The notes under the pieces are model-generated. The model did no database searches, was not told the DNA's origin, and saw only the letters and a list, made by a program, of their open reading frames with translations. This document shows, piece by piece, positions 6,915 to 13,006 of a DNA stretch of 41,967 nucleotides; position 1 is the first letter of the stretch, and each line of letters begins with the position of its first letter. Origin of the DNA: an uncultured Bacilli bacterium (lineage in GTDB: Bacteria; Bacillota_I; Bacilli_A; RF39; UBA660); contig CANQFJ010000014.1 in the NCBI GenBank assembly GCA_947598485.1, positions 1-41,967 on the forward strand, read 5' to 3'. A program made the position numbers and the translations under genes.

Positions 6915-7523
6915 CTAATACTGGTAATCCAATTCAGCGACAACAATAAGTCGCTTTTTTATGTTGTTTTCACAAGTTACTAAAGTTAAAATTTTTTTGT
7001 TACTTACTTGTTTAAAGAAAGACATATCACTTTCATCAATAGTTTGTTTATCTTTAACTGCATAAGTATAAGTATCTTTTAAGGTTACAATTTTTATTTT
7101 GTCACCAATTTTAGCTTTATGTAAATTTTGAAAAACATTATTCGTGTTATGGCCTGCGAGGATTATATTGCCTAATTCAGAGTCAAGATTAACAGAGCTT
7201 TTTAAAATTCCGACTAGATTTTTATCTAATATTTCTTTTTCAGTGCCTTTGACAATCAACCTTTTAATGTTCAAACTCGGTATTTCAATATATCCAAGAT
7301 AATAATTATTTAATTTATTAGTTTCTAGCTCTAATTTATTTTCCTTTTCATTTATTATCATATAAGAGTTTGTGTTCAAAAATTGATTTTCTATTATCCT
7401 ACTTGTTTCTTGCTTATCTTTATACTTTGCTTTTCCAAATTTATATAAGTAAATCATCGAGACTAATAACAAGATTATCCCAATGTATTTTGAAATTTTC
7501 TTTTTAATGTCTTTTTTTGCCAT
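6915..7523 (-). CDS. Sortase, class D-like, of the adhesin locus
   Basis: The 202-residue protein has one N-terminal membrane helix (about residues 13-28) and a compact sortase barrel. The catalytic triad is visible: His125 in GNIILAGHNT, Cys184 in LTLVTC, and Arg191 in KKRLIVVAEL. The motif YLGYIEIPSLNIKRLIVKG and the lack of a C-terminal membrane helix fit class D better than pilin-type class C. Sortases cleave a cell-wall sorting signal and attach the protein to peptidoglycan. Its start overlaps the adhesin's last 20 bases and has no clear ribosome binding site, so translation is probably coupled. The expected substrate is the adjacent adhesin. Confidence 0.88.
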   Translation of the reverse strand: MAKKDIKKKISKYIGIILLLVSMIYLYKFGKAKYKDKQETSRIIENQFLNTNSYMIINEKENKLELETNKLNNYYLGYIEIPSLNIKRLIVKGTEKEILDKNLVGILKSSVNLDSELGNIILAGHNTNNVFQNLHKAKIGDKIKIVTLKDTYTYAVKDKQTIDESDMSFFKQVSNKKILTLVTCENNIKKRLIVVAELDYQY

Positions 7524-10500
7524 ATGCTACAAAAATTAAGCCTAATATAGCACTGCCATTAATTGTTAGTAAAGTTGCTAAATCTGTGTTATATGTATCT
7601 GGCATTTCTTCTTTTTCGTTAGTCATTTTAGCTTGAATAACTTCTCCGTCTTCCTTAATTTCAAAATACATTTTTTCATTATTTAAAACGTATCCTTCCG
7701 GAGCTTCCTTTTCAATAATATAATATTTACCATATTCTAAATTTTCTATTATTATTTTACCTTCTTCATCAGTTCTCCCTGAGAATATTAATTCATCGTT
7801 TTCGTTATAAATTTCAATTAAGGTATTAGGAAGTGGCTCTACTGTAGACAAATCTTTCTTAGTAAATTCCAAAGTACCGGTAATTTTTTCGTTAGTCATT
7901 TCTGCTTTAAGGACTTTACCATCTTCCAAAATTTCAAAATACACTTTTTCATTATTTAAAACATAACCTTCCGGAGCTTCTTTTTCTAAGATATAATATT
8001 TGCCGTATTCAAGATTTTTAACAATAATCTTTCCATTTTTATTTGTTTTGCCCGAAAAGATAAGTTCATCATTATCATTATATATTTCAATTAGTGCATT
8101 AGGTAAAGGATTACCTGTAGTTAGATCCTTTTTGGTAAATTCAAGATCACCTTTAATCTTTTCATTGGTCATTGTAGCTTTTACAATTTGTCCGTCTTCT
8201 TTAATCTCAAAGTATACTTTTTCATTAGTAAGCTTATATCCAGTAGATGGTTCTTTCTCTATAATATAGTATTTTCCATATTCTAGCTCCTTTATTATGA
8301 TTTTACCTTCTTCATTAGTTCTTCCCGAAAATATTAATTCATTGTTTTCGTTATAAATTTCTATTAAAGTATTTGGTAGAGCTTTACCTGTAGATAAATC
8401 CTCCTTAGTAAACTCCAAGGTTCCCGTAATTTTTTCGTTAGTCATTTCTGCTTTAACGACTTTACCATTTTCTTTAATTTCAAAATACATTTTTTCTTCA
8501 TTTAAAACATAACCTTCCGGAGCTTCTTTCTCTAAAATATAGTATTTACCATATTCAAGATTTTTAACAATAATCTTTCCATTTTTATTTGTTTTGCCCG
8601 AAAAGATAAGTTCATCATTATCATTATATATTTCAATTAAGGCATTGGGTAAAGAACTCCCTGTAGTTAAGTCTATCTTTGTAAATTCAAGATCACCTTT
8701 AATTTTTTCATTGGTCATTGTGGCTTTAACAACCTGTCCGTTTTCTTTAATCTCAAAGTACACTTTTTCATTATTTAAAACATAACCTTCAGGAGCTTCT
8801 TTTTCTAAGATATAATATTTGCCGTATTCAAGATTTTTAACAATAATCTTTCCATTTTCATCTGTTTGGCCTGAAAAGATAAGTTCATCATTAATATTAA
8901 ATATTTCAATTAATGCATTAGATAAATGATTACCTGTGGTTAGATCTTCTTTGGTAAATTCAAGATCACCTTTAATTTTTTCATTAGTCATTGTAGCTTT
9001 AACAACTTGTCCGTCTTCTTTAATCTCAAAGTACACTTTTTCATTATTTAATTTATATCCTGTTGCAGGTTCTGTTTCAATAATATAAAATTTTCCTGCA
9101 AATAAATGCTCAATTGTTATATTTCCTTTTTCATCAGTAATACCACTATAAATAAGTTCATTGTCTTCTGTAAAGACTTCTATTTTTACGTTAGGAATTT
9201 CTTTCCCTGATGTTAAATCACTTTTTGAAAATTCTAATTTTCCTTTTTTTAGATAATTTTTTAAGGAAAAGCTTTCAGTTACAATAGGCGTATATTGGTC
9301 TATATATTTTAAATCAATTTCATGCATTATATTATCTAATACAAAGCCATCAGCAGTCTTTAGTTCTTTTATAAAATACTTACCTAATTTTAAATTGTTG
9401 ATTATAACCTGACCATCATTGTTTGTCGTGTATGAATTGATAAAATTTCCTAGTTCATCATATAGCCCAAAGACAATGTTAGGAAGAGTAACTTCCTCAT
9501 AAATGAATTTACCATCTTCAATTACAACGGATTCTCCTAACTTTTGAATTTCAATTTTTCCTTTAACTTCAACGTTAGTAAATTTTAGTTCTATAATTGA
9601 ATCAAATTCTTCGGTTTTTTTAAAATCAGACTTTTCATTAATTGAAAATTTTAAAGATTCTGAATTCCATAAGTATCCCTCGATTGCTTGATCTACTTCT
9701 TCAAGCTCGTAATTTCCTGAATTTAAAGGGTAGGGTGTAATTAAAATGCCATTTTCATCAGTTGAAAATTCACAATACGTTTGATGATTAGGGTAGTATA
9801 TAGTTTGACAAACATAATCGTTATTTGAAAGGTCTTTTATTTTAAACTTTATTCCTGACTTAGCAATGCTTTTTCCATTTTCATCTACTTTTAAAACTTT
9901 TACTCGAGCAGTTATTTCCGCGTTGGAAAACACTTTATTAATAGTAGGGCCAGATTCCGTTATTTCAAATTCAAAATCCTCAAGCTTTTCATAGCCAACC
10001 GGAGTTGTTAATTGCCTTAATATATAATGGCCATAAGGTAAAGTAAAAGTTATTTTTCCTTGGTTGTCGGTAGTATACCTAGAAATAAGTTGATTATTTT
10101 TATTATAAATGCCAAATTCAATATTAGCTTCAGGAGTCAGTACTTGAGTTTTATTGCTTGCTACTACTTTAGTTATACTATATTCTCTTTTTATAACCTT
10201 TTCTTTAACTTTTATATTAGGATATAGGTTATTCGTTTGCAGATCAAAATAATATTTTTCTAAATCTAGTTCATATCCTTTACTTGGTGTTATTTCTTGT
10301 AAATAGTATCTACCTGTACTAGGAAGATAATTACTTTCAGCATAACCATTTTCGTCTGTTATAAGCTTTTCTATTAAAGAGCCATCTTCTTTATAAAGCC
10401 CATATACGGCTCCTTGTAGTGTTGCATCTCCTTGAGCAGAGGCAAGACCAGTATCATAATCTAACTTATTTAAAGTGATTTTTCCGCCAATAATATTTAG

Positions 10501-11316
10501 ATTAAAATTAGTTTCAATAGGATCGTAACTTCCTACTTGAACCATGTCTTGTCCTCCAACTTTTGGATATATAATTGTAGGATGTGAATAATTACTATCT
10601 TTTTTTGTTAAGGTAATGGTGGCATTACCAACATTTTTAGCAACAATATTTAATTGATTAGTATCTTTAGTAGCTAATACATTATCGCTACTTGATACAT
10701 CATATTTTGTTAAAACATTATTTTTGTCGGTAAGACTTAATTTATTTCCTATGGTAATGTCGTGGCCAATATCACCAAAGTCAGGAGTAATATCGTGATT
10801 AGCTAGCAAAGTTTCCATTTCTTGAATTTCTGCGTTATATGGTGTAATATATGAACCATTTAAAGTATCGGTAAAATATATTTTCCAACCATGAGGAACT
10901 GTGCACCATATCATATATTGAGTAATAGCGTACCATTTTAAATCTGTATGATCGATTTCACCATCATGATAACCATAGCCGTAATACGCTAATAACTGAA
11001 TTCTTTTCCATTCGTTAGCCGTAACATTTGAAACCTCTAATTGATTATAATCTTGACCAATGTAATCTTGATCAGTGTACAATAACTCATTTATTTCCAT
11101 ACAATAGACGAATTGATTATCACTTTTTCTTGTAACTACTGCTAATTGTAGATAATGAGTACTTGTATCTGGCTCGACTTTGGTAATGAAAATATTTGGA
11201 ATTGGCAAATAAGAATCATTAAACTGCTCATTGTATGTTGCTCCATAAACTTTTTTTAAACATGGACTTATAAACATTATTATTACAACTAATAAATACT
11301 TAAATAGTTTTTTCAA
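7504..11316 (-). CDS. Thioester-domain adhesin with ten CnaB-type modules and a sorting signal
   Basis: This 1270-residue surface protein starts at TTG 11316, seven bases after AAGGGGGAA; no ATG fits. Residues 1-25 are a signal peptide. Residues about 40-190 look like a thioester domain: Cys72 in FVYCMEIN, AYYGYGYHDG, and Gln133 in YAITQYMIW, the pair that forms an internal Cys-Gln thioester in Gram-positive adhesins. After an Ig-like stretch come four diverged and six near-identical SpaA/CnaB modules, each with Lys in LEFTK, Glu in the ILEKEAPEGY strand and Asn in MTNEK, the layout of self-forming isopeptide bonds. The C-terminus has MPDTYN, a hydrophobic helix and KKRH, a sortase signal with Tyr at the usual Gly position. 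This is a covalently binding, rod-like adhesin by homology. Confidence 0.92.
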   Translation of the reverse strand: MKKLFKYLLVVIIMFISPCLKKVYGATYNEQFNDSYLPIPNIFITKVEPDTSTHYLQLAVVTRKSDNQFVYCMEINELLYTDQDYIGQDYNQLEVSNVTANEWKRIQLLAYYGYGYHDGEIDHTDLKWYAITQYMIWCTVPHGWKIYFTDTLNGSYITPYNAEIQEMETLLANHDITPDFGDIGHDITIGNKLSLTDKNNVLTKYDVSSSDNVLATKDTNQLNIVAKNVGNATITLTKKDSNYSHPTIIYPKVGGQDMVQVGSYDPIETNFNLNIIGGKITLNKLDYDTGLASAQGDATLQGAVYGLYKEDGSLIEKLITDENGYAESNYLPSTGRYYLQEITPSKGYELDLEKYYFDLQTNNLYPNIKVKEKVIKREYSITKVVASNKTQVLTPEANIEFGIYNKNNQLISRYTTDNQGKITFTLPYGHYILRQLTTPVGYEKLEDFEFEITESGPTINKVFSNAEITARVKVLKVDENGKSIAKSGIKFKIKDLSNNDYVCQTIYYPNHQTYCEFSTDENGILITPYPLNSGNYELEEVDQAIEGYLWNSESLKFSINEKSDFKKTEEFDSIIELKFTNVEVKGKIEIQKLGESVVIEDGKFIYEEVTLPNIVFGLYDELGNFINSYTTNNDGQVIINNLKLGKYFIKELKTADGFVLDNIMHEIDLKYIDQYTPIVTESFSLKNYLKKGKLEFSKSDLTSGKEIPNVKIEVFTEDNELIYSGITDEKGNITIEHLFAGKFYIIETEPATGYKLNNEKVYFEIKEDGQVVKATMTNEKIKGDLEFTKEDLTTGNHLSNALIEIFNINDELIFSGQTDENGKIIVKNLEYGKYYILEKEAPEGYVLNNEKVYFEIKENGQVVKATMTNEKIKGDLEFTKIDLTTGSSLPNALIEIYNDNDELIFSGKTNKNGKIIVKNLEYGKYYILEKEAPEGYVLNEEKMYFEIKENGKVVKAEMTNEKITGTLEFTKEDLSTGKALPNTLIEIYNENNELIFSGRTNEEGKIIIKELEYGKYYIIEKEPSTGYKLTNEKVYFEIKEDGQIVKATMTNEKIKGDLEFTKKDLTTGNPLPNALIEIYNDNDELIFSGKTNKNGKIIVKNLEYGKYYILEKEAPEGYVLNNEKVYFEILEDGKVLKAEMTNEKITGTLEFTKKDLSTVEPLPNTLIEIYNENDELIFSGRTDEEGKIIIENLEYGKYYIIEKEAPEGYVLNNEKMYFEIKEDGEVIQAKMTNEKEEMPDTYNTDLATLLTINGSAILGLIFVAYGKKRH
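7588..7605 (-). other. Sorting signal MPDTYN of the adhesin
   Basis: The codons give Met-Pro-Asp-Thr-Tyr-Asn, followed by a helix of about 20 hydrophobic residues and KKRH. It keeps the xPxT core of LPxTG signals but has Tyr where Gly is expected. Confidence 0.75.
7618..9255 (-). repeat. Six tandem 273-bp CnaB module repeats
   Basis: The Asn codon of the closing TNEK motif recurs at 7618, 7891, 8164, 8437, 8710 and 8983, exactly 273 bases (91 codons) apart, and the aligned Asn of the preceding diverged module is at 9256. The last four units alternate in type: two begin KGDLEFTK with SGKTNKNG and two begin TGTLEFTK with SGRT, so a 546-bp double unit was duplicated. Confidence 0.93.
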
Positions 11317-11345
11317 TTAAATTCCCCCTTAAATGTTATAAAATA

Positions 11346-11567
11346 CTATTTATTTGATATATGATAATCAAATTCAATATAATTAGTATCTGGTGTATTA
11401 TTTATAAAATCATCATCAAAATTTCTATTGTCTATTAAGTTATTTTTTGAATCTGAAGAATCAATGCTACTATCTCTAAATTTTTGCTTATTATTTTTGT
11501 TTATAAAATATCCTATAATAATTGTTATTAAAATTATCAAAAAAATTAATAAACATTTTTTCAACAT
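11346..11567 (-). CDS. Small membrane-anchored protein of the adhesin locus
   Basis: This 73-residue protein has an N-terminal membrane helix (LLIFLIILITIIIGYFI) followed by a Ser/Asp/Asn-rich tail. The start follows AAAGGAG; an upstream ATG is followed at once by TAA, so ATG 11567 is used although the spacing is long (11 bases). I recognise no family. It is the first gene after an internal promoter (11610-11618) and lies 29 bases before the adhesin, so it probably belongs to adhesin export, anchoring or regulation. The tail contains TPDTNY, but no hydrophobic segment follows, so it is not a sorting signal. Confidence 0.65.
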   Translation of the reverse strand: MLKKCLLIFLIILITIIIGYFINKNNKQKFRDSSIDSSDSKNNLIDNRNFDDDFINNTPDTNYIEFDYHISNK

Positions 11568-11609
11568 TACATAATTTTCTCCTTTCTATTTATTTTTAAA
11601 ATATTGTAG

Positions 11610-11618
11610 ATTATAACA
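11610..11618 (-). promoter_or_regulatory. Internal promoter before the small protein-adhesin-sortase genes
   Basis: TGTTATAAT on the minus strand gives a predicted transcript start near 11603, 36 bases before the small gene. The -35 position (AAAGGT) is far from consensus, which leaves room for an activator. Confidence 0.55.
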
Positions 11619-11639
11619 TCCTATATCATCGTACCTTTC

Positions 11640-12098
11640 TTAGGACTTAAAGCAAAAATCATCAAGCCCAAGGGCAGTTACAAACTTTATACAAGCACTT
11701 TTTTTTATTTCTCGAATTTTATCTTTACCATAATGAACTGTATTAATAATGTCATTTTCACTAAAACATCTATAAAAAGTAAGATCAAAAACTTGTAATT
11801 CAAGATTATTTAGTTTTCTCATAGCTAATGTTATCTTAGAAAGTAATTGATATTTCTCATTATCTTTTTTGACTTTTAGTAGTAAGCTTTTTAAATCAAA
11901 TTCCCTTATTTGTGAATTATCTACCTTAATAAAATTATCGTAACAAACTTGATAATCATCCGTGATTTTAGGAAGCAAAATCTCATCATTGCTTAATTTT
12001 AAATGTTTAAAAAGCATAAAAATGTTTAAGATTATATTTTTTAATTTAACATAATCATATAAAGATAATTCGTTTTTCCCAAGTAATGTATTGTTCAT
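11640..12098 (-). CDS. Small HTH regulator, ArpU/RinA or sigma region 4-like
   Basis: The 152-residue protein begins at ATG 12098 behind AAGGGGGAA, the same unusual Shine-Dalgarno context as the adhesin gene. The N-terminal half has no motif I recognise. The C-terminal half (MRKLNNLELQVFDLTFYR, then ENDIINTVHYGKDKIREIKK and a closing helix) looks like a sigma-70 region 4-type helix-turn-helix as in phage ArpU/RinA late-gene activators. It is the first gene of the adhesin locus and follows a leader of about 250 nt. A role as activator of the weak -35 promoter at 11610 is inferred. Family assignment is tentative. Confidence 0.6.
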   Translation of the reverse strand: MNNTLLGKNELSLYDYVKLKNIILNIFMLFKHLKLSNDEILLPKITDDYQVCYDNFIKVDNSQIREFDLKSLLLKVKKDNEKYQLLSKITLAMRKLNNLELQVFDLTFYRCFSENDIINTVHYGKDKIREIKKSACIKFVTALGLDDFCFKS

Positions 12099-12361
12099 AA
12101 TTCCCCCTTAACCAAGTATCCAATGCTATGTAAATAATTTTTTAATATATTTAAATTAAAAAATAAAAAAAGGAAGAGCTGCATTTCAGGATACATACTA
12201 CTTCCTTTAAAAAATAACTTTGGAAAACTGCGCACTATATTAATATGAAAAAATAAAAAAATCAAGCTATTTCAAACCATATATAGTTAATTTTATGTGA
12301 ATACGAAATATTTTAAAAAGAAGCATTGGATACATTTTTCGTATTCGTTTACATTATAACA
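12099..12361 (-). promoter_or_regulatory. Structured leader of the adhesin locus
   Basis: TGTTATAAT (12353-12361, minus) predicts a transcript starting near 12346. The RNA would begin with a 10-bp hairpin (GAATACGAAA/TTTCGTATTC, 12299-12346) whose loop holds GTATCCAATGCT (12322-12333). A terminator-type hairpin at 12169-12208 carries a variant, GTATCCtgaAATGC, in its loop. Six bases before the Shine-Dalgarno sequence stands AGCATTGGATAC (12116-12127), fully complementary to the first loop and, with a bulge, to the second. This could be a long-range RNA switch, a leader-derived small RNA with a target in cis, or a set of protein sites on DNA. Confidence 0.6.
12155..12208 (-). terminator. Terminator-type hairpin inside the leader
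   Basis: On the minus strand AAAGGAAG (12201-12208) pairs with CTTCCTTT (12169-12176) around a 24-nt loop and is followed by a long T-rich tract. It lies about 140 nt after the predicted transcript start and 57 bases before the regulator's Shine-Dalgarno sequence, so it would stop much transcription before the gene. Confidence 0.6.
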
Positions 12362-12487
12362 ATCTAGTAGCATCGAGTAAATTGGGAATAAATGTCTTAT
12401 AAAAAGCGAATAAAATGTCTTGATAATAATAAATCAACTTGACTTTAAACTGTTATATTTTAACTTTTTTTATTTAATCAATCATAT

Positions 12488-12541: not shown

Positions 12542-13006
12542 ATGATATCAAATATAAGTAATAAGAAATTGCAACTTAAGGCAATGCTTCTTGCTTTAAC
12601 AATTATTCTTGCGGGTAATAGTTGCTCTCTAGAAACTGAAGCTGAAGAAACAGAGCAAAAACCCATTTTTTATGGTGATGAAAATTATTTTTTAACTGAA
12701 TCAGAAAATGTTCCTGTTTATCCTACTGTGGAAGAGTTTATAAATAAAGAATATTATACAGAAGATGATATAACTGTTGGTATTGCCATGGGAATTATTG
12801 TTACTATACAAAAAAAAGGTAGTCCTTGGTATACTTATTGCATTAAAGATTTTGATGAAAACAGTTCTTACACTCCTCCGGCAGGATTTAGTGCTTATGA
12901 AGAGCTCGTAGGAATAGGATTAGATGAAAATAGCAAAGTAACTTATATAAGAGGAGGAATTTATCATGATGTTCCTACTCATGTTGAACAATATTTAAAA
13001 AAATAA
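12542..13006 (+). CDS. Small exported protein of unknown function, possible lipoprotein
   Basis: The 154-residue protein starts at ATG 12542, eight bases after AAGGAAG. The N-terminus is a signal peptide (basic start, then AMLLALTIILAG) ending in GNSC. That Cys may be lipidated, but the -3 residue is not the usual Leu. The mature part is acidic, with PVYPTVEEFINKEYYTEDD, a hydrophobic patch GIAMGIIVTIQKK, and Trp/Tyr-rich strands. I recognise no family. It is followed by another exported protein gene 61 bases on; the two may form a small envelope operon. Confidence 0.7.
   Translation: MISNISNKKLQLKAMLLALTIILAGNSCSLETEAEETEQKPIFYGDENYFLTESENVPVYPTVEEFINKEYYTEDDITVGIAMGIIVTIQKKGSPWYTYCIKDFDENSSYTPPAGFSAYEELVGIGLDENSKVTYIRGGIYHDVPTHVEQYLKK

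Follow-up and report, generated by a model that had tools for sequence, protein, structure and literature searches.

The leader of an adhesin operon from an uncultured Bacilli bacterium carries, in the loop of its 5′ hairpin, a sequence (element A) that is complementary at 12/12 positions to a sequence just upstream of the Shine-Dalgarno (SD) site of the first gene (element C). Comparison with related leaders shows that this long-range RNA pairing, as read from complementarity and covariation, is conserved among them while its letters change. We consider it probable, with some reservation, that a structured leader RNA controls the ArpU-like first gene and that A:C pairing would set the output of ArpU and hence of the adhesin.

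The window is the whole stretch of DNA analysed (41,967 nt; contig CANQFJ010000014.1 of assembly GCA_947598485.1). Features of the leader and operon are given in the direction of transcription:

12390-12398 and 12413-12421, minus strand: two direct repeats AAGACATTT, 23 bp apart, read from the sequence, with similar repeats in relatives
12353-12381, minus strand: predicted promoter P1, TTTACT-17-TATAAT with an extended -10, from a promoter scan and aligned in relatives
12299-12346, minus strand: 5′ hairpin H1, stem GAATACG/CGTATTC, from sequence and stem covariation
12322-12333, minus strand: element A, GTATCCAATGCT (= GUAUCCAAUGCU), in the H1 loop, from sequence, pairing and covariation
12237-12265, minus strand: putative promoter P2, TTGATT-17-TAATAT, from sequence and aligned in relatives
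12169-12208, minus strand: terminator-type hairpin T2 followed by a T run, from sequence, with the same hairpin in relatives
12189-12205, minus strand: motif B, GGAAGTAGTATGTATCC (GGAAGTAGTAYGTATCCT at 12187-12205), inside T2, conserved in relatives
12116-12127, minus strand: element C, AGCATTGGATAC (= AGCAUUGGAUAC), the complement of A, from sequence, pairing and covariation
12103-12109, minus strand: SD AAGGGGG of the arpU-like gene, from sequence
11640-12098, minus strand: first gene, ArpU-like regulator of 152 aa (TIGR01637 below cut-off; phrog_248)
11346-11567, minus strand: small membrane-anchored ORF of 73 aa, with longer equivalents in this position at loci L059 and L061
7504-11316, minus strand: thioester-domain (TED)/SpaA-repeat adhesin of 1270 aa
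6915-7523, minus strand: sortase of 202 aa

An earlier note on this DNA had reported the loop sequence, a copy of it in T2 and its complement; all three were recovered on the minus strand, the T2 copy (GTATCCTGAAATGC) being a partial one. T2 itself consists of a stem AAAGGAAG/CTTCCTTT with a 24-nt loop, followed by seven T, and GTATCC occurs three times in the leader. The predicted P1 start puts the 5′ end just upstream of H1, and a transcript beginning at that hairpin, as the note had proposed, fits the extended -10 promoter; in the scan as a whole, promoter-like sites were no more numerous than in shuffled sequence. P2 is weak in the window, below the scan threshold, and clearer in relatives from integrative conjugative elements (ICEs). 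The GGGGG of the SD (12103-12107 in the window) is present in 7/7 close leaders and is separated from C by 8 nt, or by 6 nt if the SD is taken as AAGGGGG.

Pairing and covariation among related leaders

Relatives were collected at the DNA level within the genus and with protein profiles across the family and order. They comprise three leaders whose chromosomal surroundings match those of the window (L059, L060 and L061), leaders in other settings (L062, the same as L081; L080; and L082, nearly the same as L083) and, at a greater distance, ~16 other ArpU leaders; drawing again from the family gave no additional leaders. Comparing the 80 nt that follow the predicted P1 start with the last 45 nt before arpU, we found a contiguous helix of 11-18 bp in 7/7 distinct leaders, and two helices lengthen to 17 and 19 bp when the last 48 nt are used. 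These helices, each with shuffle p ≤0.006, are GUAUCCAAUGCU:AGCAUUGGAUAC in the window, GUAUCCAAUGGA:UCUAUUGGAUAC in L080, GUAUCCAGAGAG:UUCUUUGGAUAC in L062 (likewise in L082, plus one pair), AAAUGAGCACUUUUUGAU:AUUAAAGAGUGCUCAUUU in L060, AGAAAGAUACUUUU:AAAAGUAUCUUUCU in L061 and AGAAAGAUGCU:AGUAUCUUUCU in L059. Three versions of the arms, unrelated in sequence, were seen: GUAUCC in the window, L080, L062 and L082; AAAUGAGCACUUUUUGAU in L060; and AGAAAGAURCU in L059 and L061. The GUAUCC version has its 5′ arm within the H1 loop and its 3′ arm at about -30 to -18. By contrast, L059, L060 and L061 carry the 5′ arm after H1, outside the loop, with the 3′ arm between about -49 and -28.

When the arms of all seven leaders were exchanged (a 7 × 7 matrix), the leader's own partner was best in every row, with ties only among partners sharing an arm. 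Elsewhere in that leader, and in the gene's first 300 nt, no segment pairs equally well. Among 152 natural 250-nt upstream segments, none reached the scores of 6/7 leaders and two reached that of L059. For the window leader, ~0.1% of dinucleotide shuffles gave as good a helix between the two ends (first 80 nt, last 45 nt) and 0/152 natural segments reached its score, so that the complement, to which the earlier note had assigned a chance of 1 in 100, is rarer than claimed. Shuffling scored by duplex energy over 90/60-nt windows gave no significant result in the ICE forms (p 0.10-0.30). The terminators of these leaders probably swamp the energy signal, and we therefore relied on the contiguous-helix test. 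For the distant ArpU leaders, helix permutation gave p 0.025 and duplex energy p 0.31, and the best cases, L058 (15 bp) and L090 (14 bp), pair with the 3′ arm and U run of terminator T3 (see below); the case for A:C pairing in that group is only suggestive.

Across the four GUAUCC leaders, the A:C helix is 100% paired, with three pairs changed on both sides and two changed on one side only, becoming G·U; in the H1 stem of the seven leaders, 4/7 pairs have changed on both sides. None of 500 shuffles attained the A:C or the H1 covariation score. The A:C count covers the GUAUCC leaders, leaving aside L060 versus L059/L061, whose arms were shifted by automatic alignment, and it rests on three distinct states since the arms of L062 and L082 are identical; the arms were chosen and stitched by hand, so both counts lean towards structure. 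Taken together, the pairing of each leader with its own partner in three sequence versions and the covariation within GUAUCC and in H1 speak for RNA pairing and against operators or an invertible element, and conservation in relatives, on which the earlier note had made its proposal turn, was found in seven leaders together with compensatory changes.

An origin by chance or mutation, in which long complements come easily to AT-rich leaders or template switching between inverted copies maintains them without function, strikes us as improbable. The sequence is indeed low in G+C, the independent leaders are few and inverted arms can be copied by template switching, but shuffles, natural segments and swapped partners all score lower, three separate sequence versions join the same two places, and G·U pairs persist where template switching would restore identity.

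With RNAfold, L060, L061, L059 and L080 are predicted to form the long helix in their ensembles (P 0.78-0.98); A:C is absent from the predictions for the window, L062 and L082 because there it would form a pseudoknot with H1, which the program cannot show. The helix stops 6-21 nt before the SD. In predictions with the arms made unavailable, the SD of the GUAUCC leaders was not closed and its openness rose in several, and the L059-L061 group gave mixed results; a blocked ribosome-binding site (RBS) is therefore one possibility and not a result. The earlier note had the loop fold onto the RBS region and block translation: the pairing with that region stands, being conserved, and the block is no more than a possibility, as the helix falls short of the SD and folding does not predict a hidden SD.

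Leader architecture in integrative conjugative elements

L062/L081 and L080 are located in ICEs. Around arpU, genome G219 encodes a coupling protein, a serine recombinase, TrbL, a weak match to PrgI, a VirB4-like ATPase, a MobL relaxase, an M23 peptidase, SSB, a TED/SpaA adhesin and a sortase, and the ICE setting is taken from this genome; G305 (L080 and L133) has the same gene order by inspection. The ICE-type leader runs in the order P1, H1 enclosing A and T1, P2, T2 with motif B, a leader ORF with its own SD, T3, C, SD and arpU. Here P1 is followed by the terminator T1 directly after element A, an arrangement that fits a small leader RNA of ~70 nt, and a trans-acting small RNA in the ICE forms is plausible on these sequence features.

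The stop of the leader ORF overlaps the arpU start (ATGA) in L080 and L082. Among the distant ArpU leaders, most have an ORF of 23-67 codons that either terminates within or beside T3 or reads through T3 into the arpU start. Within the last 250 nt before arpU, an own-SD leader ORF at a terminator was found in most of a set that includes L125, L063, L064, L066, L090, L093, L095, L098, L100 and others. Judged by position only, the leader ORF and terminator likely form a translation-dependent attenuator. Conservation of C as coding sequence (LDTR in the ICE leader ORFs) was considered and rejected: the window reads C in another frame, and the L062 ORF stops before it.

The arpU-adhesin-sortase operon of the window (6915-12098) matches the ICE module in other genera (L062, L132 and L133). 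This match of a chromosomal operon suggests a domesticated ICE fragment that has kept the regulator and part of the leader. The window leader is without the T1, T3 and leader ORF of the ICE type, and its only ORF has a start codon that is not conserved; on sequence, it looks like a reduced chromosomal version of the ICE form. The adhesin operon is probably derived from a mobile element.

Motif B is kept nearly letter by letter in T2 of L059, L060, L061, L062, L080 and L082, and also in L125, beyond what the stem requires; in other genomes of the family, its matches outside arpU leaders fall in coding sequence. The T2 copy had been read as a second, equivalent pairing site. Relatives without GGATAC near the RBS retain the T2 motif, and we rejected the copy as a second partner of C because motif B is kept where the sequence of C is gone; its conservation must have some other reason.

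Searches of general collections gave no counterpart of the leader. The window leader had no Rfam match even at E ≤1, and nine related loci had none at the gathering score. Viral contigs held no relatives by protein profile or motif B, the motif matches being unrelated sequences, and a protein search of plasmid and phage records gave no match. The open-access literature contained no description of such a leader device, an absence that is not proof.

Proposed mechanism and competing readings

In the mechanism we favour, RNA started at P1 would fold H1 and expose element A in its loop, and A would pair across ~200 nt with C, just 5′ of the arpU SD, in a pseudoknot enclosing the P2 region and T2; in sister species, another sequence, immediately 3′ of H1, would provide this link. 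The pairing, we infer, would set the amount of ArpU, and then that of the adhesin, at translation initiation. The short P1-T1 RNA (~70 nt) of the ICE forms could act in trans on P2-started RNA, and the window form, without T1, would act mainly in cis on P1 read-through RNA. No Hfq was found, so a trans-acting RNA would need to work without it.

If functional, the pairing may restrain independent initiation at arpU, the outcome towards which we lean and which we place a little short of an even chance; that it would instead help initiation, by analogy with the repZ pseudoknot of ColIb-P9, seems less likely but deserves to be taken seriously, and an effect on RNA stability or of some other kind is unlikely. 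We suggest, tentatively, that uncultured Bacilli could harbour a hitherto undescribed class of leader RNA in their ICEs. In it, the upstream promoter would give a short RNA whose A pairs ahead of the SD in cis or trans, an ORF running into a terminator would couple transcription of arpU to translation, and the letters would drift between lineages, with part of the arrangement kept chromosomally. If true, a conserved RNA device would stand over a regulator linked to adhesion and conjugation, and, since the arms change in step, every lineage would own a private arm pair, by which co-resident elements could be regulated without cross-talk.

The earlier note had offered operators for a DNA-binding protein as its alternative. 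On this reading, the protein, for example ArpU itself, would bind the GTATCC sites of the leader. Three GTATCC sites in the window leader, the conserved sequence of motif B in T2 and the conserved direct repeats upstream of P1 agree with it, but L059, L060 and L061 have GTATCC in neither arm and keep complementarity with other letters, and in the GUAUCC leaders the flanking letters of the two arms change together. With three unrelated arm sequences and complementarity retained, we regard this explanation of the arms as highly doubtful. DNA-binding regulation of P1 is likely anyway, given the conserved repeats, and AAGACATTT, lying 5′ of the P1 -35, is probably a regulator site.

Matching sites elsewhere in the genome, also foreseen in the earlier note, did not materialize among exact matches. 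The 12-mer of element A has three copies in the 1.26-Mb genome, two of them in the leader and the third, a chance match, inside a PrsA-like coding sequence; allowing ≤2 mismatches, the count rises to 102, and a reversed-pattern control gives 48. A genome-wide set of target sites was rejected, as the exact matches are the leader pair and that one coding match. We accordingly give little credence to the terminated leader being a trans-acting small RNA for other genome targets instead of its own gene: P1-T1 in the ICE forms and P1-T2 in the window do resemble short RNA units with A exposed, but the sole exact target outside the leader is mid-coding sequence, the best partner within each leader is its own pre-SD region and Hfq was not found.

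Invertons typically have inverted repeats ~200 bp apart beside a surface-protein operon (PMC11892184), and the window repeats have that spacing and setting in a genome that encodes large serine recombinases elsewhere, but the idea that the 12-bp repeats are recombinase sites, and that flipping 12128-12321 inverts T2 and P2 and so switches the operon, is very improbable: the relatives have three unrelated repeat sequences, not tolerable for one recombinase, P1 lies outside the repeats, 7/7 leaders show a single orientation, 6/8 arm mismatches (L062/L082 counted once; most arms were picked allowing G·U) still pair as G·U on the arpU strand, and the three recombinases, encoded on other contigs, are large proteins of 532-581 aa.

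Known systems and genomic surroundings

Translation of repZ in ColIb-P9 depends on a pseudoknot upstream of the RBS (PMC8383071), and in I-complex plasmids a leader peptide precedes the regulated gene (PMC10286972). The leaders described here resemble these IncI/IncB rep leaders (ColIb-P9 repY-repZ) in their long-range pairing just upstream of the next gene's SD and, in the ICE relatives, in their leader ORF. They differ in serving an ArpU-like regulator of an adhesin/ICE operon and no replication initiator, and in having both arms on the same strand of one leader; the sequences are unrelated. The IncI type also involves an antisense RNA, made from the opposite strand, that blocks the pseudoknot, and no such RNA is known for the leaders described here. 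Unlike Rli51 of the Listeria mpl 5′UTR, the RNA would have its own downstream gene as the proposed target, and the link is kept as complementarity with drifting letters. As in the trp and mef/mel leader-ORF attenuators, most ICE relatives have a short, separately SD-led ORF that ends in or beside the terminator before arpU, whereas the window leader is without such an ORF and terminator; the leader peptides of different relatives are dissimilar and so give no evidence of an amino-acid or drug sensor.

The first gene recalls ArpU/RinA-type phage regulators through its weak TIGR01637 (phage_arpU) and phrog_248 matches. Its product scores 27.0 bits against TIGR01637, below the cut-off of 43.1, and is thus at most a distant relative of the ArpU family; the modelled C-terminal part weakly resembles sigma-factor region 4. 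Unlike those regulators, the gene precedes a TED adhesin and a sortase, is chromosomal in the window and has a paired leader. The conjugative plasmid pLS20 carries a thioester-domain adhesin in its conjugation operon, where it is needed for efficient conjugation (PMC8092201), and the ICE relatives likewise carry a TED adhesin among conjugation genes. In contrast to pLS20, which has no sortase gene, a sortase accompanies the adhesin here, and the window module lies among ordinary chromosomal genes.

The three large serine recombinases (G000 C15:39124-39558, C8:53335-53790 and C3:47903-48385) probably come from mobile elements. A divergent small lipoprotein-like gene (12542-13006, plus strand) lies beside the window leader and is also found nearby in L059 and L061.
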